Below are positions 4,348 to 39,903 of a DNA stretch of 64,000 nt, piece by piece; the stretch's first letter is position 1, and every line of letters starts with the position of its first letter. Source of the DNA: Streptomyces sp. man185 (GTDB lineage Bacteria > Actinomycetota > Actinomycetes > Streptomycetales > Streptomycetaceae); the NCBI GenBank assembly GCA_002551355.1, contig NTHE01000013.1, positions 1-64,000 on the forward strand. The letters run 5' to 3'. A program made the position numbers and the translations under genes. The notes below the pieces were generated by a model that saw nothing but the letters and a program-made list of their open reading frames with translations, searched no databases and was not told where the DNA came from.

Positions 4348-4746
4348 ATGCAGAGCCTGAAGCTCACCGAACGTACCGAACCGGAGCCTGTCGATCCGGA
4401 CGACGACGGCGGCTTTGACGCGTACGACATGTTCGAGATGGTCCGGGTGATCTGCCCGGACTGCGCCCAGCCCATCGCGCTGCTGGCCGACGAGGACGTC
4501 CTGCCGGAGCACGCCCGGTGCCCCACGCCGTGGAACCCCTTCGTCCTCACCGTCTGCGCCGGAACCGGCCGCGGCGCGAGCGACGCCCGGCCCGCGGACG
4601 AGACGCTGGAGCTCCAGGAGCAGGAGACCGGGCTGCTGCTGACGCTCCCCCAGGGTCTCGACTGGCGGATGCAGCCCTTCTCGCACGCCGGAGGACCCGG
4701 TTCCCGTCCGCTGCGCGTGCCGTGGATGCGGCGCGAGGCCGCCTGA
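4348..4746 (+). CDS. Hypothetical acidic CxxC protein
   Basis: A 132-residue soluble protein of no known family. The first 25 residues are very acidic. A CPDC pair follows near residues 40-43, and single cysteines lie near 62 and 74, so a metal or redox site is possible but not a standard zinc ribbon. The ATG at 4348 has GAGGGGGG about 7 nt upstream; the frame runs back to 4276 without a better start. It diverges from the Lrp/AsnC gene and is followed 24 nt later by a strong hairpin, so it is probably monocistronic. Function unknown. Confidence 0.75.
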   Translation: MQSLKLTERTEPEPVDPDDDGGFDAYDMFEMVRVICPDCAQPIALLADEDVLPEHARCPTPWNPFVLTVCAGTGRGASDARPADETLELQEQETGLLLTLPQGLDWRMQPFSHAGGPGSRPLRVPWMRREAA

Positions 4747-4770
4747 GCGACCCGCCGTACGCCCCGCCCA

Positions 4771-4798
4771 GCACCACGGCGGCCGGCCGCCGTGGTGC
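4771..4798 (+). terminator. Terminator after 4348 gene
   Basis: A perfect 12-bp stem (4771-4782 with 4787-4798) closes a CCGG tetraloop 24 nt beyond the stop codon. Confidence 0.75.
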
Positions 4799-4907
4799 CT
4801 GCGGCTCTCACAGCCCCCGGTCGCCGGCGCCGGGCGCGGGCCGCAGCGAACGAGCGCTCGAATCGGCATGGCAGTGACCCGGGCCCGCCCTGCCGCGTTG
4901 GCCCCGT

Positions 4908-5213
4908 ATGACCATGCTGCACACACCAGTCGGTTCGGGTCGCCGTCGGCTCGCCGCACCCGCCCCCGAAGAATCGGTTCCGCAGCCGGGAACGCTCACA
5001 CAGCCGCTGCCCCGCTCCACGGGGACCTCGCCCATGGGCGCCCCCGCGGACCCACCGATCTTCAGTGCGCTGCTCAGACAGTGGGAGAGCGCAGGCCGGA
5101 CGCTGCCGGGCCGCCGCGACCCGGAGTGGATCCAGGCCGCGGCGCTGCCCGCATGGCCGGAGGGGCCGCTGCGGTTCAGCGCGTCTCGGGACCCGCGAGG
5201 TGGCGGGCGATGA
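4908..5213 (+). CDS. Small conserved hypothetical protein
   Basis: A 101-residue protein, Pro/Arg-rich for its first half, with a more conserved-looking second half (LLRQWESAGRTLPGRRDPEW at about residues 55-74). I recall similar short proteins beside this acyl-CoA dehydrogenase in other Streptomyces, but assign no function. The ATG at 4908 or 4914 could serve; no strong ribosome site is seen. Its last 38 bp overlap the 3' end of the convergent acyl-CoA dehydrogenase gene, so the two transcripts are complementary there. Confidence 0.6.
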   Translation: MTMLHTPVGSGRRRLAAPAPEESVPQPGTLTQPLPRSTGTSPMGAPADPPIFSALLRQWESAGRTLPGRRDPEWIQAAALPAWPEGPLRFSASRDPRGGGR

Positions 5214-6348
5214 CCATGCGCTGGATCTGATTGGTGCCCTCCACGATCTGGAGCACCTTCGCCTCGCGCATCAGCCGTTCGACCGGGAAGTCGAGCGTGT
5301 AGCCGTATCCGCCGAGCACTTGGACGGCGTCGGTGGTCACCCGCATGGCCGCGTCCGTGCAGAACAGCTTCGCCATGGCGGCCTGCCGGGAGAAGGGCTC
5401 CCCCGCGTCGCGCAGCCGCGCCGCCTCCAGATACAGCGCCCGGCCGGCCTCGATCTGGGTGGCCATGTCGGCGAGCATGAACCGCAGCCCCTGGAAGTCC
5501 GCGATGGGGCGGCCGAACTGGCGCCGGTCGGTGGCATAGCGGACGGCCTCGTCCAGGGCCGCCTGGGCCACCCCGATCGCACAGGCGGCGATGCCGAGGC
5601 GGCCGGAGTCGAGCGCGGACAGGGCGATGGCGAAGCCCTGCCCCTCCTCGCCGATGCGCCGGTCGTCGGCGACCCGTACACCGTCGAAGTGGAGCTGGGC
5701 CGTGGGCGAGCCCTTCATCCCCATCTTCTTCTCGGGGAGAGCGGCGTTCAGGCCCTCGGCGTCGCCGGGGACGAGGAAGGCCGTGATGCCGCGGGGGCCC
5801 TCGACGCCGGTACGGGCGAGCACGGTGCAGAAATCGGAGACGCCGCCGTGGGTGATCCACGCCTTGGTCCCGGTGATCACCCACTCGTCCCCGTCCCGTA
5901 CGGCCTTGGTGCGCAGCGACGCGGCGTCGGAGCCGGAGGCGGGCTCGGAGAGGCAGTAGGCACCCAGCAGGCCGCCGGAGAGCATCGCCGGGAGGTGTGC
6001 GGCCTGCTGCTCGTCGGTGCCGTACCCGGCGAGTGCGTGGCAGGCGAGGGAGTGGACGCTGACGCCGAGTCCCACGGTGAGCCGGGCGGCGGCCAGTTCC
6101 TCCAGGACCTGGAGGTAGACCTCGTAGGGCTGGTCACCGCCGCCGTGGGCGGAGCCGTAGGGGAGTCCGAGCAGTCCGGCCTCGGACAGGAGGGTGAAGA
6201 CCTCGCGGGGGAAGACGCCCGCTTCCTCCTCCTCGGCCGCCCGGGGAGCGATCTCCTTGGACACGATGTCGCGGACGAGCGCGACGAGCTGCCGGGACTC
6301 CTCGGTGGGCAGACGGCGTTCCACCGGCTGCGGGGCACGGTCGGACAT
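5176..6348 (-). CDS. acdH: Acyl-CoA dehydrogenase
   Basis: A 390-residue FAD flavoenzyme of the short/branched acyl-CoA dehydrogenase type, which oxidises acyl-CoA to the 2-enoyl-CoA in valine/isoleucine or fatty acid breakdown. The N-terminal helical domain runs to about residue 125. The FAD signature AYCLSEPASGSDAAS is near 130-145 and ITGTKAWITHGG near 160-171. The C-terminal domain has RRQFGRPI, QVLGGYGY and the catalytic Glu region IVEGTNQIQRMVIAR near the end. Length is normal for the family. The assignment to AcdH rests on gene order resembling S. coelicolor SCO1428; substrate range is inferred. Confidence 0.88.
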   Translation of the reverse strand: MSDRAPQPVERRLPTEESRQLVALVRDIVSKEIAPRAAEEEEAGVFPREVFTLLSEAGLLGLPYGSAHGGGDQPYEVYLQVLEELAAARLTVGLGVSVHSLACHALAGYGTDEQQAAHLPAMLSGGLLGAYCLSEPASGSDAASLRTKAVRDGDEWVITGTKAWITHGGVSDFCTVLARTGVEGPRGITAFLVPGDAEGLNAALPEKKMGMKGSPTAQLHFDGVRVADDRRIGEEGQGFAIALSALDSGRLGIAACAIGVAQAALDEAVRYATDRRQFGRPIADFQGLRFMLADMATQIEAGRALYLEAARLRDAGEPFSRQAAMAKLFCTDAAMRVTTDAVQVLGGYGYTLDFPVERLMREAKVLQIVEGTNQIQRMVIARHLAGPETR

Positions 6349-6732
6349 GACGGCGCTCTCCTCCCTGTCGGGCGTTGCGACGGTCGCGCGCTCGGGGTGT
6401 GAGAGGCGCCGCCGGGTGATCTCCCGGAAGAGACCCGGGAAAGACAGACTGCCCAGCCGATCCTGCCCTCCCGGGTCACGGGTGGCGCGGTCATCGGCTG
6501 TGGCGGGTTGAGTATGCCCGATGGGAAGCCTTCCGTCACGGGGGCAACGGGCAGGTCGGAGGCCTGAAGAGGCCGAGAACGATCAGTGAATTGGTCCGAA
6601 CCATTGACCCAACTGGTCTAGTCCTTCTACGGTTCCACTCAACGCCTACCGCGTTCATGTCAAACCGGGCGCAGTCGCCCGGAGTTCGGCCAGCACCCCC
6701 CACGCACCAGCCCTCCCCCACGAGGAGCCACG
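6349..6732. other. Divergent promoter region, acdH / chitinase
   Basis: A 384-bp gene-free stretch. The chitinase side holds the operator-promoter at 6592-6633. The acdH side shows no recognisable box. Confidence 0.6.
6592..6633 (+). promoter_or_regulatory. Chitinase promoter with paired DasR-type boxes
   Basis: Two 12-bp boxes, TGGTCCGAACCA (6592-6603) and TGGTCTAGTCCT (6614-6625), start 22 bp apart and flank a -35 TTGACC (6604-6609). A -10 TACGGT (6628-6633) follows at 18-bp spacing. Each box with its flanks matches the 16-bp DasR responsive element at about 12 positions. In Streptomyces, chitinase genes carry such direct repeats and answer to DasR and chitin/GlcNAc signals. Binding here is inferred. 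Confidence 0.8.
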
Positions 6733-8007
<1,275 letters not shown>

Positions 8008-8016
8008 TCGGCCGCG

Positions 8017-8055
8017 CGGCTGTGGGGGCGGGCCGGCGGCCCGCCCCCACAGCCG
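8017..8055. terminator. Convergent terminator after chitinase
   Basis: A perfect 18-bp stem (8017-8034 with 8038-8055) with a 3-nt loop lies 9 nt beyond the chitinase stop and 44 nt beyond the stop of the opposing small gene. Confidence 0.85.
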
Positions 8056-8099
8056 TTACCGGGCGCTGCAGCAGGCCGTCGGACAGGCGTTGCGGGCCG

Positions 8100-8252
8100 C
8101 TACAGCAGCCCGAGCTGGGTGACCAGCATCGCGAACACGACCACGAAGGCCCAGCCGGCGATGTGCTCCATCAGCTTCGAGCCGCCCTCGGGGCCCCCGG
8201 TGCGCGCACGACGGGCGTGGTGGGCGTTTCCTGCGGCGGTGGTCGCGGTCAT
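8100..8252 (-). CDS. Small single-pass membrane protein
   Basis: A 50-residue protein with a basic, Gly/His-containing N-terminal half and one hydrophobic segment (about residues 31-50) reaching the C-terminus, so probably a tail-anchored membrane peptide. It starts with ATG at 8252 behind a modest GAGCGAG. It is convergent with the chitinase gene and separated from it by the shared terminator. No family recognised. Support is a sensible start, GC-rich third positions and a TM helix; function unknown. Confidence 0.55.
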   Translation of the reverse strand: MTATTAAGNAHHARRARTGGPEGGSKLMEHIAGWAFVVVFAMLVTQLGLL

Positions 8253-8673
8253 GGCGTCTCGCTCTTCGTACGGCTGCGGCTGGGGCTCCCCCGTGACCCG
8301 ACCAGAGTGCCAGCGCCCCGGGCCGTACAGAACGAGATCCCGGTCACGGCGGTGCCGCCCGAGCAGCCAGGGGCGCATCGCTCCCCCAGTACGGCACGGG
8401 AATCGGGCCGAGGCAGACGGCTCGGACCGGAGCACCCTGTGGGCGACGCCACACCGGCCCGGGGCCCGGGCGGCCTCCGTGCGGGAAAAGCCGGTGATCA
8501 CCGCGGAGACGGGGGTAAGCCCGTCGGCGTCGGCCAGTTTTCCGGATCCGGAAACGTACGGGAACTTTTTCGGCCACCTGGCCGACTACTGCCCCATGGG
8601 AAGAGACCGCGGCACCGTCCCCCGGGGCGGGCCCCCCAGCGGGCCTCGCGAAGGGGCTGGCTACCTTGTGTCC
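8253..8673. other. Gene-free stretch with a palindrome
   Basis: Between two divergently read genes. The only notable element is the 16-bp perfect palindrome at 8539-8554. No clear -35/-10 pair is visible. Confidence 0.5.
8539..8554. promoter_or_regulatory. 16-bp perfect palindrome, possible operator
   Basis: TTTCCGGATCCGGAAA is fully self-complementary and relatively AT-rich at its ends. It lies 120-135 bp before the His-rich membrane gene. It resembles a repressor site; the regulator is unknown. Confidence 0.45.
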
Positions 8674-9297
8674 ATGCGTGCACCGGGCGGCCTGCCGAGG
8701 CGAGCGGCCAGGGGCCTGCTCTGCGGCTCGGCATGCCTGTCCCTCGGCGCCGCGAGCCATGTCGCGGCCGGTGGACGACTGCCCGGCGCGGAGGTGCTCG
8801 CGCTCCTGTTCCTCGCCCTGACCGTGCAGGGCGCCCTCTTGTTCGGCGGGCGACTGTCCGGTGGGCAGCGGCGCTTCGACGTCGTGGTGCTGGTGCTCGG
8901 CGGGACGCAGTTCGCCCTGCACAACGCGTTCCACTTCCTCCCGGCCCCCGGCGGAAGCCCGCACCCCGCGCACATGGCCGGGCACGCGCATCACCCGGCC
9001 GGGCCGCCCGTCGGCCCCGGTGCGGCCGCGGGCGCCGGACATGCCACGGACGCCGGGATGATCCTGGCCCACGCGGCGGCCACGCTCGGATCGGCCCTCT
9101 GCGTGCTGTACGGGGAGCGGGTGCTGCGACGCCTCGGGGCGCTGCTCACCCCCCTCGCCGCACTCCGGCCCGCCCCCGCGCTCCAGTGCCCGCCCCGGCC
9201 GCGCGTCGTGCCGCCGGCGGTGGCACGGGTCCGGATCGGGGCGCTCCTCGCCCGGTCCCGGTCCCGGCGCGGGCCGCCTGCGGCGGCCCCGGCCTGA
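8674..9297 (+). CDS. His-rich integral membrane protein
   Basis: A protein of about 207 residues with hydrophobic segments near 12-30, 35-55, 68-85 and 125-145. A His-rich loop (HPAHMAGHAHH, near residues 94-104) lies between the last two, and a basic, Pro-rich tail follows. Such loops often bind Cu, Zn or Ni; this is inference. A GTG six bases upstream (8668) fits AAGGGG (8651-8656) better than the ATG used here. It lies just before a PepSY membrane protein that also has a His-rich loop, so a shared metal-handling role is plausible. No named family recognised. Confidence 0.65.
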   Translation: MRAPGGLPRRAARGLLCGSACLSLGAASHVAAGGRLPGAEVLALLFLALTVQGALLFGGRLSGGQRRFDVVVLVLGGTQFALHNAFHFLPAPGGSPHPAHMAGHAHHPAGPPVGPGAAAGAGHATDAGMILAHAAATLGSALCVLYGERVLRRLGALLTPLAALRPAPALQCPPRPRVVPPAVARVRIGALLARSRSRRGPPAAAPA

Positions 9298-9405
9298 CCT
9301 CTCCTCACCCTGCCCTCGACGCCGGAAGCGACCGGCGTCCATCAGGCATGCGTGCGGGAGCCGTCGGGCGCGCGTCCGCCACCGTCTGCCCTCCGAGGAG
9401 CACCC

Positions 9406-10848
9406 ATGTCCCACAGAACCGAAGCAATAGCGCGACACGACCACGATCCGACCGACACCCCGGCAGGGAGACCGGCCCGCTCCTGGACGGAGGTCCGGCA
9501 TCTCCTGGTCCGGCTGCACTTCTACGCCGGGGTGCTCGTCGCCCCCTTCCTGCTGGTGGCCGCGCTGACCGGGCTGGCCTACACGCTGACGCCGCAGCTC
9601 GACCGGCTCGTCTACGGCGACCAGCTCCGGGTCGAGCGGGTCGGCGACGAGGTGCGCCCCCTCTCCGAGCAGATCGCCGCAGCGCGTGCCGCGTACCCCG
9701 AGGGCGCCCTGGCCTCGGTGATCACCCCACCGGGCCCCGAGGACACCACCCGGGTGGTGCTCGCGGTGCCGGAGCTGGGCGAGAACCAGCGCACGGTGTT
9801 CGTCGACCCGTACACCGCCGAAGTGCGGGGCGAGCTGACCACCTGGTTCGGATCGACGCCGCTCACCACCTGGCTCGACGACCTGCACCGCAATCTGCAC
9901 CTGGGCGACACCGGCCGCCTGTACTCCGAGGTCGCCGCGAGCTGGCTGTGGGTGGCCGTCGCGGGCGGCCTCGTCCTGTGGCTCGGGCGCGCCCGGGGCA
10001 GGCGCGCGAAGTCGGCCCGGGGCGTGCTGCTTCCGGACCGTACGGCCCGAGGGGTGCGGCGGACGCGCAGTTGGCACGCGGCGACCGGGGTGTGGCTGGC
10101 GCTGGGCCTGCTGTTCCTGAGCGCCACCGGCCTCACCTGGTCGAACTACGGCGGCGAGCGGTTCGGGCGGCTGCTGGACGCGGCCAACGGCAACGCCCCG
10201 GCCCTGGACACGGCGCTCCCGGGCGCCGGGTCCCCCGCCGAGGACCACTCGGAGCACGCCGGACACGGCGGTTTTGGGGGCACGGCGGCCGACGCCGACC
10301 CGGCGGACTTCGAAGCGGCTCTCGCGGCGGCCCGGGGCGCGGGCCTCGGCGGGATCGTGGAGGTGACGCCTCCGGCGGACGCGGCGAGCGCGTGGGTCGT
10401 GGCGCAGACCGACAACACCTGGCCGGTGCATTACGACCGGGTGGCCGTGGACACCACGAGTGGCGAGATCACCTCGCGCACCCGCTGGGCCGACCACCCG
10501 GCCCTGAACAAGCTCAGCAAGCTCGGGGTGCAGGGCCACATGGGCGTGCTGTTCGGGGTCGTCAACCAGATCGCGCTGGCGCTCCTGGCGCTCGGCCTGA
10601 CCGGGGTGATCTTCTGGGGCTACCGCATGTGGTGGCAGCGGCGGCCCACCCGGGGCGACCGGTCCGCACCGGTCGGCAGGGCTCCGGAGCGCGGGGCGTG
10701 GCGGCGGATCCCGCTGCCGGCTCTGGTCCTCGGCATTCCGGCCGTGGCCGCCCTGGGCTGGGCGCTGCCGGTCCTCGGGGTGACCCTGGCCGGGTTCCTG
10801 GTGGTCGACGCGGTGGTGGGGACGGTACGCCGACGACGTACCGCCTGA
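9406..10848 (+). CDS. PepSY-associated TM helix protein
   Basis: A 480-residue membrane protein of the PepSY_TM family (PiuB-like), often linked to siderophore-iron or copper reduction and uptake. TM1 follows residue 30 (LHFYAGVLVAPFLLVAALTG). A first PepSY domain (about 75-150) precedes a conserved LHRNLHLGDTGR. TM helices come near 180-200 and 225-245. A His-rich extracytoplasmic loop EDHSEHAGHGG (about 281-291) leads into a second PepSY-like repeat, and C-terminal helices end the protein. The ATG at 9406 has a perfect GAGGAG 5 nt upstream, overruling an upstream ATG at 9352. The metal is not determined. Confidence 0.85.
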   Translation: MSHRTEAIARHDHDPTDTPAGRPARSWTEVRHLLVRLHFYAGVLVAPFLLVAALTGLAYTLTPQLDRLVYGDQLRVERVGDEVRPLSEQIAAARAAYPEGALASVITPPGPEDTTRVVLAVPELGENQRTVFVDPYTAEVRGELTTWFGSTPLTTWLDDLHRNLHLGDTGRLYSEVAASWLWVAVAGGLVLWLGRARGRRAKSARGVLLPDRTARGVRRTRSWHAATGVWLALGLLFLSATGLTWSNYGGERFGRLLDAANGNAPALDTALPGAGSPAEDHSEHAGHGGFGGTAADADPADFEAALAAARGAGLGGIVEVTPPADAASAWVVAQTDNTWPVHYDRVAVDTTSGEITSRTRWADHPALNKLSKLGVQGHMGVLFGVVNQIALALLALGLTGVIFWGYRMWWQRRPTRGDRSAPVGRAPERGAWRRIPLPALVLGIPAVAALGWALPVLGVTLAGFLVVDAVVGTVRRRRTA

Positions 10849-35054: not shown

Positions 35055-36749
35055 TCAGTCCTCCGGAAGCTCGACCGGCGCGATCTCGTCGAAGACGTCG
35101 CCGGGGCCGGGGTTGGTGCCGTCCGTCGCCCCGCCGAACTGGTGCATGACGCCCCACACGGCGTTCAGCGCGGTCTGCACGGCGCCCTCGGCCCAGCCGG
35201 CCGTCCAGGAGATGTCGTCCCCGGCGAGGAAGATCCCCCGCTTGTCCTCGGGCAACCGGTCCTGCATGAAGTGCGTGAACAGCCGCCGCTGGTAGCGGTA
35301 GTGGCCGGGCAGGTTGGCCTTGAACGCGCCCATGAACCAGGGCTCGTTCTCCCAGGAGACGGTGACCGGGTTGCCGATGATGTGGCTGCGGACGTCGACG
35401 TTCGGGTAGATCTCCCCGAGCGACTTGAGCATGACCTCCATGCGCTCCTTCGGGGAGAGCGGCAGCCACTTCAGACTGTCGTCGCACCAGGTGTAGGAGA
35501 GGCAGATGACGGCGGGCTTGTCCGGCCCGTCGTCCAGGAGGTACGTCCCCCGGGTCATCCGGTCGGTGAGCGTCATCGACATCGTGTCGCGGCCGGTGGT
35601 CTCGTCCTTGTCCAGCCAGAACGGGCGGTCGACCGGCACGAACAGCTTGGACGACTCCATGTAGTGGGTGCGCTCCATCGCCGTCCAGTGGTCGATCGGG
35701 AAGAGCGCGTCATCGCAGTCGATCTTGGAGAGCAGCAGCCAGGACTGGCCGGTGAAGACCGCGGCCCGGAAGGTGCGGATGTCACCGGTGGCGTCGGTGA
35801 CCGTGATGCGGTTGCCCGCGGTACGGGTCAGCCGGGTCACGGCTTCGCGCGGCTCGCCCTCGTGCAGGGTGGCGAGCGAGGTGCCGAGCGGCCAGTGGAC
35901 GATCTTCTGCGGCTCGCGGTCCCACAGGCGCAGCGGGAGCTGCTGGCTGCCGCCGACGATGCCGCGGTGGTGGTCGTCGGCCTCGGTGTAGACGACGCGC
36001 AGGATCTCCAGGATCGAGTTGGGGAAGTCGGTGTCCCAGCCGCCGGTGCCGAAGCCGACCTGGCCGAAGATCTCGCGGTGCCGGAAGGACTTGAAGGCCT
36101 CGGACTCGCAGAGGAACCCGTAGAAGGTCTGGTTGTCGAGCCGCTCGACGAGCTGCGACCAGATCTCCCGGATGCGCGGGACGTCGCGCTCGCGCAGCGC
36201 CCGGTTCATGTCGGAGAAGTCGGCGCCCTCCTCCAGACAGGCGCTCCAGGCCTCGGCGACGTCGCGGTAGACCTGCGGCAGGTCGTCGATGGTCTCGGCG
36301 TAGTGCGACTCGCCCTTGAGGTCCACGACGGTCGAGGGCGTGGCCGGCGAGAGCGGGTTGGGGAAGGGCTGCGTTTCCAGGCCCACCAGGTCGATGTAGT
36401 GCTGGAGCGCCGTGGAGGACGGCGGGAAGCGCATCGCGCCCATCTCGGCGGTGAGCGCGGGGTCGCAGCCGTCGAAACCGACGGTGCGCAGCCGGCCGCC
36501 GATCCGGTCGGCCTCGTAGACGACGGGCTTGAGGCCCATCTTCATCAGCTCGTACGCGGCGATGATGCCCGAGAGACCGCCGCCGATGACGGCGACCTCC
36601 TGGCCGTGCTCGGTCGCCGGTATCTGACCGAGGCCCGCGGGGTGGGCGAGGAAGTCGTCGTACGCGTACGGGAAGTCCGGCCCGAACATGGTGATCGGCG
36701 GGGCGGCCGCGTCGGTGTGCTGGACGGCGTTGGGCACCGTGGACGTCAT
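35055..36749 (-). CDS. davB: DavB-like L-lysine 2-monooxygenase
   Basis: A 564-residue flavin amine oxidase-fold enzyme. Compared from memory with Pseudomonas DavB it shares near-continuous blocks: FGPDFPYAYDDF (22-33), VAVIGGGLSGIIAAYE (52-67, FAD GxGxxG), GGRLR (84-88), GQVGFGTGGWDTDFPNS, the Trp/Gly-rich AGDDISWTAGWAEGAVQ near the C-terminus and NPGPGDVF. DavB oxidatively decarboxylates L-lysine to 5-aminovaleramide. Close relatives take Phe or Trp, so substrate is inferred. The nitrilase-type amidase gene just upstream (48-nt gap) would hydrolyse the amide, which supports a Dav-type pathway. Confidence 0.82.
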   Translation of the reverse strand: MTSTVPNAVQHTDAAAPPITMFGPDFPYAYDDFLAHPAGLGQIPATEHGQEVAVIGGGLSGIIAAYELMKMGLKPVVYEADRIGGRLRTVGFDGCDPALTAEMGAMRFPPSSTALQHYIDLVGLETQPFPNPLSPATPSTVVDLKGESHYAETIDDLPQVYRDVAEAWSACLEEGADFSDMNRALRERDVPRIREIWSQLVERLDNQTFYGFLCESEAFKSFRHREIFGQVGFGTGGWDTDFPNSILEILRVVYTEADDHHRGIVGGSQQLPLRLWDREPQKIVHWPLGTSLATLHEGEPREAVTRLTRTAGNRITVTDATGDIRTFRAAVFTGQSWLLLSKIDCDDALFPIDHWTAMERTHYMESSKLFVPVDRPFWLDKDETTGRDTMSMTLTDRMTRGTYLLDDGPDKPAVICLSYTWCDDSLKWLPLSPKERMEVMLKSLGEIYPNVDVRSHIIGNPVTVSWENEPWFMGAFKANLPGHYRYQRRLFTHFMQDRLPEDKRGIFLAGDDISWTAGWAEGAVQTALNAVWGVMHQFGGATDGTNPGPGDVFDEIAPVELPED

Positions 36750-36797
36750 GGGGTACGGACTCCTTGCGCGGTACGGAAGTTCGGGGAGGAGGCGGGC

Positions 36798-37595
36798 TCA
36801 GGCGAGGGAGCCGTAGAGGCCGGGGCGGCGGTCGTTCAGATACGGGTTGGCGGCGCGCGATGCGGCCAGGAACTCCGGGTCCACCTCGCCGATCACGAGT
36901 TCCTCGCCGCGTCCGGCGCGGGTGCGGACGGTGCCGTCGGGGCCGGCCAGGCAGCTGAGCCCGACGAACTCGAACTCGCCCTCCGGGCCGGTGCGGTTGA
37001 CGTACGCCACGTACATCTGGCTCTCGAAGGCCCGTACGGGGACAACGGATTCGGCGACGAACTGGAAGGGGTGCATCTGCGCGGTGGGCACCAGCAGCAG
37101 ATCGGTGCCGGCCAGGGCGTGCGCCCGTACGTTCTCCGGGAACTCGACGTCGTAGCAGATCAGCAGGCCGATACGGATGCCGTCCAGGTCGGCCTGGACG
37201 ACGGTCCGCTCGCCGGGGGTGAACCACTCCTGCTCGAAGCAGCCGAACAGGTGGGTCTTGCGGTAGTTCGCGAGCCGTGCGCCGTCGGGGCCGATGAGCT
37301 GGGAGGCGTTGAAGATCCGCTCCCCGTCGCGCTCCGGGTAGCCGTAGAGGACGGCGAGGCCGTGGCGTACGGCGATCTCGGCGACGGCCTTCGCCCCGGG
37401 TCCTTCGGCGGGCTCGGCCAGTACGGGCACGGCGTCGCCGATGGCGTATCCGGTGAGGAACAGCTCGGGCGCCACCAGCAGCCGGGCTCCCGCGCCGGCG
37501 GCCCGGGCGGCGGCCTCGTCGAGCGCCTTCAGGTTCTCGGCGACGGCGCCGGGCCGTCCGGAGCTCTGGAGCAGGGCGGTGCGCAACGACGGCAT
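36798..37595 (-). CDS. davA: DavA-like 5-aminovaleramidase (nitrilase family)
   Basis: A 265-residue carbon-nitrogen hydrolase with the full Glu-Lys-Cys triad: Glu44 in APELFLTGY, Lys113 in NYRKTHLFG and Cys147 in LLICYDVEFPE. Length (DavA is about 264) and motifs agree with delta-aminovaleramidase, which turns 5-aminovaleramide into 5-aminovalerate plus ammonia. Other linear-amide substrates are possible, but the adjoining DavB-like oxygenase argues for this one. It starts with ATG 183 nt after the Lrp/AsnC gene. That gap holds three phased GTTGCG repeats, so it probably has its own regulated promoter. Confidence 0.82.
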   Translation of the reverse strand: MPSLRTALLQSSGRPGAVAENLKALDEAAARAAGAGARLLVAPELFLTGYAIGDAVPVLAEPAEGPGAKAVAEIAVRHGLAVLYGYPERDGERIFNASQLIGPDGARLANYRKTHLFGCFEQEWFTPGERTVVQADLDGIRIGLLICYDVEFPENVRAHALAGTDLLLVPTAQMHPFQFVAESVVPVRAFESQMYVAYVNRTGPEGEFEFVGLSCLAGPDGTVRTRAGRGEELVIGEVDPEFLAASRAANPYLNDRRPGLYGSLA

Positions 37596-37676
37596 GGCTG
37601 ACCTCGGGCGGTGCGGGCGGGGTGGGGAGACGTATCGAAGGTACGTGGCCCCGATCGGCCCCGACAAGGCGCGAGT

Positions 37677-37735
37677 GTTGCGCGTCGACCGTTGATTCGT
37701 TGCGCGGGTAGGGCTTGGTGCGGCGAATCGTTGCG
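37677..37735. promoter_or_regulatory. Phased GTTGCG repeats before davA
   Basis: GTTGCG occurs at 37677-37682, 37699-37704 and 37730-37735; starts are 22 and 31 bp apart, i.e. about two and three helical turns. The last two extend to GATTCGTTGCGCGG and GAATCGTTGCGTGG. This suits an oligomeric Lrp-type protein wrapping DNA. The Lrp/AsnC gene next door is the obvious candidate; inference. Confidence 0.55.
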
Positions 37736-37778
37736 TGGAGCATCACCGCAGGTCAGCAGGGTGATGTGCGCCACTGCC

Positions 37779-38237
37779 TCAGGCCGGTGGGGCCTCCGCC
37801 GAGTAGCGCCGCAGCAGCGGGGAGAGCACCAGGACGGACTTGGTCCGCTCGACGTACGGCTCCCCCGCGATGCGTTCCAGGACCTGCTCGAAGTGGCGCA
37901 TGTCGGCGGCGAAGACCTGCACGACGGCGTCCGCCTCCCCGGTCACCGTGGAGGCCGAGGCGACCTCCGGGTAGCGGGCGAGGCCCTGCTTGATGGCGTC
38001 CGGGGAGGTGTTGCGGCTGCAGTAGATCTCGATGAACCCCTCGGTCTCCCAGCCGAGCGCCGCCGGGTCGACCCGCACGGTGAAGCCGGTGATCGCACCC
38101 TCGGCGCGCAGCCGGTCGACCCGGCGTTTCACGGCGGGGGCGGAAAGGCCGACGATCGCGCCGATGTCGGCGTAGGAGCGCCGGGCGTCTTCGGCGAGGG
38201 CGTGGACGATGCGTTCGTCGAGGTCGTTCAGGCGCAC
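37779..38237 (-). CDS. Lrp/AsnC family regulator of the dav cluster
   Basis: A 152-residue Lrp/AsnC regulator: HTH at about 2-55 (DIGAIVGLSAPAVKRRVDRL) and a RAM domain at about 66-145. Start GTG (38235-38237) gives the typical VRLNDLDERIVHAL N-terminus; the open frame upstream to 38324 has no homology. Sandwiched between the aldehyde dehydrogenase and davA genes on the same strand, it likely senses lysine or an intermediate and controls both flanking promoters. Confidence 0.88.
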   Translation of the reverse strand: MRLNDLDERIVHALAEDARRSYADIGAIVGLSAPAVKRRVDRLRAEGAITGFTVRVDPAALGWETEGFIEIYCSRNTSPDAIKQGLARYPEVASASTVTGEADAVVQVFAADMRHFEQVLERIAGEPYVERTKSVLVLSPLLRRYSAEAPPA

Positions 38238-38279
38238 GTCGGGCGGTTCACTTCTCTGCGGTGGGTCGGCTGCGGGGGC

Positions 38280-38303
38280 GGGAGGCGGACGGTGCCGCCT
38301 CCC
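38280..38303 (-). terminator. Possible terminator, aldehyde dehydrogenase
   Basis: A 9-bp stem GGGAGGCGG/CCGCCTCCC (38280-38288 with 38295-38303) with a 6-nt loop lies between the aldehyde dehydrogenase stop and the regulator start. Confidence 0.5.
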
Positions 38304-38367
38304 GCGGTAGTCGCAGTAGACCATGAGCCGCCGTCGCGGGCGTGCTCGGCGCAGTGGAGGTGGCCGG

Positions 38368-39825
38368 TCAGAAGGGGAACTGCGAGCGGCCGTGCTGGAT
38401 GGAGATCCACTTCTGGGTGGTGAAGGCCTCGATCATCGAGTCGCCGTTCAGCCGGCCGAGGCCCGAGCTCTTCTCGCCGCCGAAGGGAACGATCGGCTCG
38501 TCGTGGACGGTGCCGTCGTTGATGTGGATCATGCCGGTGTGGATGCGCTGCCCGATCCGCACACCGCGCTCGATGTTGCCGGTGTGGACGGCGCCGCTGA
38601 GGCCGTACGGGGTGTCGTTGGCGATGCGGACGGCCTCGTCCTCGCCGTCGAAGGGGATCAGCAGGGCGACGGGCCCGAAGATCTCCTGCCGCAGGACCGG
38701 CGAGTCGGCGGCGAGGCCGGTCAGGACGGAGGGGCTGACGAGGTTGCCGTCGGCGCGGCCGTGCAGGAGGGCCGTCGCCCCGGCGGCCACGGTCTGGTCG
38801 ACGAGCTTGGAGACGGACTCGGCCTGCGAGGAGTTGATCAGCGGGCCGATCTGGGTGGCCGGGTCGGCGGGGTCGCCGACGGTGAGGGATGCGACCTTGG
38901 CGACGAACTTCTCGGTGAACTCCGCCTCGACGGCGCGGTCGACCAGGATGCGGTTGGCGGCCATGCAGACTTGGCCCTGGTGGACGTACCGGCTGAAGAC
39001 CGCCGCGTCGACGGCGTAGTCCACGTCCGCGTCGTCGAGCACGATCAGGGCGCTGTTGCCGCCGAGTTCGAGGACGGCCTGCTTGAGGTTCTGGGCGCAG
39101 ACGGTGGCGACATGGCGGCCGACCTTGTCCGAGCCGGTGAAGGAGATGACCTGCGGCACGGGGTGCTCCAGCAGGGTGTCGCCGATCTCCGCGATGTCGG
39201 TGATCACGACGTTCAGCAGCCCGGCGGGCAGTCCGGCGTCCTCGAAGATCTTGGCGAGCAGGGTGCCGCCGCAGATCGGGGTGTTCTGGTGCGGCTTGAG
39301 GACGACGGCGTTGCCGAGGGCCAGCGCGGGCGCGACGGACTTGAGGGAGAGCAGGAAGGGGAAGTTGAACGGGCTGATCACGCCGACGACCCCGACGGGC
39401 ACGCGGTAGACGCGGTTCTCCTTGCCCTCGGTCGGCGAGGGAAGGATCTGTCCGGCGGGGCGCAGGGCCAGCTGGATCGCCTCGCGGAGGAACTCCTTGG
39501 CCAGGTGCAGTTCGAAGGCGGCCTTCAGCCGGGTGCCGCCGAGTTCGGCGACGATCGCTTCGCCGATCTCCGGCTCGCGCTCCTCGACGAGGCGCAGCGC
39601 CTTCTCCAGGACGGCCCGCCTGCTGTACGGGTTGGTGTCCGCCCACGCCTGCTGGGCCCGCTCGGCGGCGCGGTAGGCCTGGTCGACCTCGTCGGCGGTG
39701 GCGACCGGGATCGAGGCGAGCTTCTCCCCGTCGAACGGGTTGAAGTCGATGATGTCCCAGGACCCCTTCCCCGGCCTCCACTCGCCGTCGATGTACTGGT
39801 GGGCCAGGTCAGTGAAGAAGGACAT
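38368..39825 (-). CDS. Aldehyde dehydrogenase (benzaldehyde/vanillin DH type)
   Basis: A 485-residue NAD(P)-dependent aldehyde dehydrogenase with all key residues: Asn154 in SPFNFP, Lys177 in LKPHQ, general base Glu253 in LELGGNSA and nucleophile Cys287 in GQVCMAANR. Sequence style (SPFNFPFLLSLKSVAPALALGNAVVLK) is closest to aryl-aldehyde dehydrogenases rather than the glutarate-semialdehyde type expected next in lysine breakdown, so its link to davBA is uncertain. It starts with ATG downstream of a striking inverted repeat (39857-39903). Catalyses aldehyde to acid in the cytoplasm; the substrate is not defined by sequence. Confidence 0.87.
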   Translation of the reverse strand: MSFFTDLAHQYIDGEWRPGKGSWDIIDFNPFDGEKLASIPVATADEVDQAYRAAERAQQAWADTNPYSRRAVLEKALRLVEEREPEIGEAIVAELGGTRLKAAFELHLAKEFLREAIQLALRPAGQILPSPTEGKENRVYRVPVGVVGVISPFNFPFLLSLKSVAPALALGNAVVLKPHQNTPICGGTLLAKIFEDAGLPAGLLNVVITDIAEIGDTLLEHPVPQVISFTGSDKVGRHVATVCAQNLKQAVLELGGNSALIVLDDADVDYAVDAAVFSRYVHQGQVCMAANRILVDRAVEAEFTEKFVAKVASLTVGDPADPATQIGPLINSSQAESVSKLVDQTVAAGATALLHGRADGNLVSPSVLTGLAADSPVLRQEIFGPVALLIPFDGEDEAVRIANDTPYGLSGAVHTGNIERGVRIGQRIHTGMIHINDGTVHDEPIVPFGGEKSSGLGRLNGDSMIEAFTTQKWISIQHGRSQFPF

Positions 39826-39856
39826 GAGATCCCTTACCGCAGAGAGGCAGGCAGCT

Positions 39857-39903
39857 GAGTGCGCTTCATATTACTTATATCGCAACAGAGTTGAAGCGCA
39901 CTC
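39857..39903. promoter_or_regulatory. Operator-promoter of aldehyde dehydrogenase gene
   Basis: Two perfect 12-bp arms, GAGTGCGCTTCA (39857-39868) and TGAAGCGCACTC (39892-39903), flank a 23-bp AT-rich core. On the minus strand the core contains TTCAAC and TAATAT, 16 bp apart, as likely -35/-10, and also a GTTGCG. A repressor bound at both arms would cover the promoter. Confidence 0.65.

Follow-up and report, generated by a model that had tools for sequence, protein, structure and literature searches.

The adjacent nitrilase-type amidase and FAD oxygenase genes of the analysed window, a 64,000-nucleotide stretch of the Streptomyces sp. man185 genome, probably encode a 4-guanidinobutyramide amidase and an arginine 2-monooxygenase, and would form a chromosomal pair for arginine catabolism that almost all Streptomyces share. 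What is observed is the pair itself with its catalytic residues intact, its position in the tree, its neighbourhood and co-occurrence, and the conserved boxes. We infer its substrate and products from the tree position, the ureohydrolase neighbours in relatives and the pocket pattern, with which the amidase tree agrees; the paralogues in polyketide synthase (PKS) loci and the ureohydrolase co-occurrence also counted in favour. The FAD enzyme would convert L-arginine and O2 to 4-guanidinobutyramide, CO2 and H2O by oxidative decarboxylation, and the amidase would release NH3 from the amide to give 4-guanidinobutyrate. An unlinked guanidinobutyrase (G000:C84:62371-63297) would then form GABA and urea, and a GABA aminotransferase (G000:C111) would take GABA toward succinate. 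A wider proposal, for which the chances seem evenly balanced, sees in these core genes the set missing from the S. griseus route of the 1960s and gives them an Lrp of their own that senses arginine or a pathway intermediate through three helically phased operator boxes; starter-unit enzymes for polyketide clusters primed with arginine would have come from the same family.

The window strain belongs to the Streptomyces griseus group, and its oxygenase is 98% identical to those of S. durocortorensis, S. globisporus and S. parvus. The sequence-only reading of this DNA had described genes for an aldehyde dehydrogenase, an Lrp/AsnC regulator, an amidase and an oxygenase; all four are present and placed as it noted, on the minus strand at 35055-39825 (Table 1), with a gap of 48 nt between the last two. 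Pfam matches were obtained for the nitrilase (CN_hydrolase, E = 6e-49), the oxygenase (Amino_oxidase, E = 5e-53) and the dehydrogenase (Aldedh, E = 3e-157), and the regulator carries HTH_AsnC and an AsnC ligand domain. The nitrilase Glu/Lys/Cys residues, which had been called intact, lie within PELF, KTH and CYD motifs.

Table 1. Features of the locus, in window coordinates.
Feature	Position	Strand	Details and basis
FAD amino acid monooxygenase, proposed arginine 2-monooxygenase (EC 1.13.12.1)	35055..36749	-	564 aa; homology, tree, pocket
Nitrilase-superfamily amidase, proposed 4-guanidinobutyramide amidase	36798..37595	-	265 aa; Glu44-Lys113-Cys147
Promoter-like -35 (TTGTCG) and -10 (TACCTT), 18 bp apart	37638..37668	-	predicted; conserved in Streptomyces
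Box 3 (CGCAACACTC), adjoins the -35	37673..37682	-	conservation
Box 2 (CGCAACGAATC), proposed Lrp site	37694..37704	-	conservation
Box 1 (CGCAACGATTCGCCG), proposed Lrp site, 31 bp upstream of box 2	37721..37735	-	conservation
Lrp/AsnC-family regulator, probable activator of the pair	about 37779..38237	-	GTG start, 152 aa
Perfect 10-bp inverted repeat between the dehydrogenase and Lrp genes; terminator-like, no T run	38279..38304	-	read directly
Aldehyde dehydrogenase, 4-hydroxybenzaldehyde-dehydrogenase-like; outside the unit	38368..39825	-	485 aa

The best solved relative of the oxygenase is L-AAO/MOG of Pseudomonas sp. AIU 813 (PDB 3WE0; E = 2e-239; 325 of 550 residues, or 59%, identical), which was used as a stand-in for P. 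putida DavB and is the sole characterised lysine-type member of the tree. Asp238 of that enzyme, the binder of the basic side chain, is kept in the window oxygenase (Asp241), as are Arg102 (Arg107), Tyr416 (Tyr419), Trp418 (Trp421), Phe473 (Phe476) and Trp516 (Trp519). Full-length homology, the FAD motif, the aromatic cage and Asp238 place the protein among the basic-substrate flavin L-amino acid monooxygenases of the AIU 813 family, with which it shares the fold, the FAD site and the plug loop VGFGTGGW. The AIU 813 enzyme uses Lys, Orn and Arg (PMC5832979), and Asp238 therefore indicates a basic substrate rather than lysine specifically. The two proteins fall on different tree branches and differ at or near the pocket, where the AIU 813 branch has Ser237, Cys/Leu/Phe254, Gln258, Ser/Ala417, Met419, Pro514 and Ala515, while the Streptomyces enzymes have Thr, Ala, His, Thr, Cys, Ala and Gly; from AIU 813 to the window oxygenase the changes include S237T, C254A, Q258H, M419C, P514A and A515G. 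The Streptomyces residues agree with those of guanidinobutyrase-linked enzymes at most of the seven positions, and the pocket contrast between the AIU 813 branch and the remaining enzymes is consistent. These differences are no more than suggestive as to the substrate, Asp238 being common to both types, and the argument drawn from them partly restates that from the tree. A second Streptomyces oxygenase copy (L160, 8831-10468), 62% identical to that of the window and accompanied by an amidase of its own, has Asp238 replaced by Asn; the D238N form of AIU 813 is inactive, which suggests a different, perhaps uncharged, substrate for this copy.

In the oxygenase tree the Streptomyces clade (support 100/100) is sister to an actinobacterial family (99/94), and both then join two guanidinobutyrase-linked lineages (93/93). 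The AIU 813 branch is separate from Streptomyces (100/100), so that the window oxygenase lies outside the branch of the characterised lysine enzyme, where a DavBA member would be sought. The oxygenase of L152, a locus with a guanidinobutyrase, falls with the AIU 813 branch (100/99), which means that the arginine and lysine types are not clean separate clades, and the root of the tree is uncertain, the Trp monooxygenase outgroup having a very long branch. The amidase tree gives the same split (support 0.997), with the window amidase outside the branch of lysine-type amidases.

The neighbourhoods of related oxygenase genes point in the same direction. The Tsukamurella operon runs ureohydrolase, amino acid permease, amidase, oxygenase. 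A ureohydrolase gene no more than 10 kb from the oxygenase also occurs at L146 and L152, in a genus of the same order represented by four genomes (L106, L164-L166), and at L159, a PKS-linked Streptomyces copy; the chance expectation is roughly 0.4% per genome. For the ureohydrolase of L146 and the window genome's own, the best solved match is the guanidinobutyrase 3NIO and not agmatinase (two tested); NCBIfam labels these proteins agmatinase, and the guanidinobutyrase assignment thus rests on structure match and context. As expected of an arginine route, a guanidinobutyrase is encoded in the window genome, and in relatives its gene is linked to that of the oxygenase. Further genes of L152 encode an aminotransferase, a dehydrogenase of the succinate-semialdehyde type and a thiamine-diphosphate enzyme akin to 5-guanidino-2-oxopentanoate decarboxylase. 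Lysine-type relatives, unlike the window pair, have aminotransferase/dehydrogenase neighbours: in L156, whose oxygenase is 80% identical to AIU 813, the order is oxygenase, amidase, GABA aminotransferase, aldehyde dehydrogenase, and L157 has a GABA aminotransferase neighbour. No guanidinobutyrase match was found in the genomes of these two loci. The actinobacterial L156 run (4638-10098) is a complete DavBATD-like candidate in its own right. L157 (7114-13737), which combines its lysine-type oxygenase with a short gene of weak (30%) Lrp similarity, the GABA aminotransferase, an acyl-CoA dehydrogenase and LysR, is possibly a lysine-to-glutaryl-CoA cluster.

Oxygenase paralogues 61-64% identical to that of the window are found in PKS loci that also encode an AMP-ligase and a VinK-like acyltransferase, as one would expect of a marginolactone cluster. 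Such clusters use an arginine monooxygenase, an amide hydrolase and a CoA ligase (PMC5082578, PMC4737276) and have been located by probing with an arginine oxidase gene (PMC4737276). Compared by description, the marginolactone (azalomycin, desertomycin) arginine monooxygenase belongs to the same family and has the same proposed conversion of arginine to 4-guanidinobutyramide, and an amidase partner accompanies several PKS-type copies (L153, L154). The window copy differs in being core chromosomal, with neither a PKS cluster nor a CoA ligase.

Of 248 Streptomyces genomes, 242 encode the oxygenase, so the route is not an unusual second one confined to a single strain; in the Streptomyces loci examined, the amidase gene immediately precedes it. 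Across the class sample of 394 genomes, a ureohydrolase accompanies the catabolic-type oxygenase in each of the 21 genomes outside Streptomyces that encode it, against a background of 65/328 without the oxygenase, counts drawn from related genomes that are not phylogenetically independent. The five oxygenase genomes without a ureohydrolase are two of lysine type, two with PKS-linked copies and one distant, ligase-linked case. Among Streptomyces, the ureohydrolase is also gone in five of the six genomes without the oxygenase, compared with 2/242 of those with it (Fisher p = 2e-8). This joint loss was rejected as independent evidence: every genome with the loss falls in a single clade of the GuaB1 tree, and the loss therefore counts as one event. 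That clade has lost the oxygenase, the ureohydrolase and the Lrp orthologue together and has kept GuaB1, the Lrp neighbour in other strains. The missing oxygenase of genome G477 looks like a contig-end artefact. No guanidinobutyrase lies in the same locus as the Streptomyces pair; that of the window genome, on contig C84, stands beside a thiamine-diphosphate enzyme. This couple (L162, 6360-9031), a guanidinobutyrase-like gene directly followed by a relative of 5-guanidino-2-oxopentanoate decarboxylase, recurs in L152 and may form a second arginine branch by way of 2-ketoarginine.

The sequence-only reading took the pair for a lysine-catabolic DavBA system, and its architecture, a basic-amino-acid oxygenase with an amidase, is indeed that of DavB/DavA. 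Breakdown of lysine to 5-aminovaleramide, 5-aminovalerate and then glutarate would fit the 59% identity of the oxygenase to the lysine enzyme of AIU 813 and its retained Asp238, as well as the 55% identity of the amidase to that of the lysine-type operon L156, and the GABA-type aminotransferase of the genome could serve 5-aminovalerate. Nevertheless, we consider this route unlikely: both enzyme trees place the pair outside the AIU 813 branch and its lysine-type amidases, the pocket pattern is that of guanidinobutyrase-linked homologues, relatives sit with a guanidinobutyrase, and no CsiD glutarate hydroxylase was found in the window genome. Lysine breakdown in Streptomyces proceeds mainly via cadaverine. 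Judged by these comparisons, the DavBA assignment is probably wrong in its substrate, while its pair architecture, associated Lrp and aryl-type dehydrogenase stand. A shade less probable again is a broad monooxygenase whose substrates in vivo include both arginine and lysine, and ornithine as well, together with an amidase taking both amides and an Lrp sensing basic amino acids; AIU 813 sets a precedent by accepting all three, each contacted by Asp238, but in related genera the guanidinobutyrase linkage argues for a single main substrate. An aromatic amino acid monooxygenase that forms an auxin-type amide from Trp or Phe would belong to the same superfamily, and the oxygenase-amidase pairing recalls IaaM/IaaH. 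However, the second solved match of the oxygenase, Trp 2-monooxygenase 4IV9 (E = 3e-61), is only 35% identical and has Val at the Asp238 position. Comparison with the DavB stand-in and with Trp 2-monooxygenase, in line with the check proposed earlier, puts AIU 813 much closer; on identity and Asp238 this function was rejected, and its chance is negligible.

Arginine as the substrate also has to be weighed against opposing observations. The nearest characterised enzyme, AIU 813, prefers Lys and Orn over Arg, and the Streptomyces pair is without a guanidinobutyrase alongside. The main point against comes from S. lividans, which is said to have no arginine monooxygenase and required 4-guanidinobutyramide for azalomycin (PMC5082578). 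If S. lividans carries the gene, as most Streptomyces do, this would argue against arginine use, at least in the conditions of that study.

The association of the Lrp gene with the pair, also proposed from the sequence, is borne out by comparison. In Streptomyces the Lrp gene lies upstream on the same strand wherever both were found, at a distance of 187-9051 bp, and an orthologue (59-62% identical) occurs near the oxygenase in all seven sampled loci of another actinobacterial family, in a differing arrangement, so that the association is not mere synteny. The 95 Streptomyces sequences upstream of the amidase have GCAAC boxes in common, typically three, 31 and 22 bp apart (31-bp spacing in 87/95, 53-bp in 86/95), directly ahead of the TTGTCG-18-TACCTT promoter-like pair. 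In the other family, the box occupies the same place at three of the seven loci, two of these with the 31-bp spacing. Conserved upstream sites and conserved Lrp-gene linkage are what an Lrp-controlled operon should display. Lrp binding and the direction of control are what we infer from this arrangement: the protein would bind the boxes immediately upstream of the -35 and probably activate transcription, the three-turn spacing beside the -35 suggesting cooperative binding and activation. The pattern CGCAACGAWTC has six sites in the 8.07-Mb genome, two of them upstream of the amidase; none of the four further sites is at the guanidinobutyrase, and they did not reveal a regulon.

The S. griseus enzyme (EC 1.13.12.1) yields 4-guanidinobutyramide, and the arginine catabolic route of this species was reportedly described by van Thoai and Olomucki in the 1960s. 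The route is cited in PMC2242806, with van Thoai 1966 as source. The window pair comes from the same species group and has the same proposed chemistry. Our literature search found no gene assignment for the S. griseus route and, by S. coelicolor gene number, nothing on the enzyme. If correct, the arginine assignment would supply genes for an activity described sixty years ago and correct the lysine (DavBA) annotation to which sequence identity by itself leads in Streptomyces. It would also provide a candidate pocket signature to tell arginine-type from lysine-type enzymes, and would be relevant to marginolactone starter-unit supply and 5-aminovalerate engineering.

The aldehyde dehydrogenase, described earlier as aryl-aldehyde-like, is indeed nearest to 4-hydroxybenzaldehyde dehydrogenase. 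It adjoins the pair only in the griseus group and is thus outside the conserved unit, contrary to its earlier inclusion in the cluster; on the same two grounds it was rejected as a DavD. As noted before, the locus has no DavT/DavD-type aminotransferase/semialdehyde dehydrogenase pair, whereas L156 does. A single operon of four genes is not supported, given the variable gaps and the hairpin after the dehydrogenase gene, an inverted repeat suggesting that the dehydrogenase forms a separate transcription unit. Upstream of the dehydrogenase gene, the AT-rich segment 39826-39900 contains an operator-like GCGCTTC...GAAGCGC inverted repeat.
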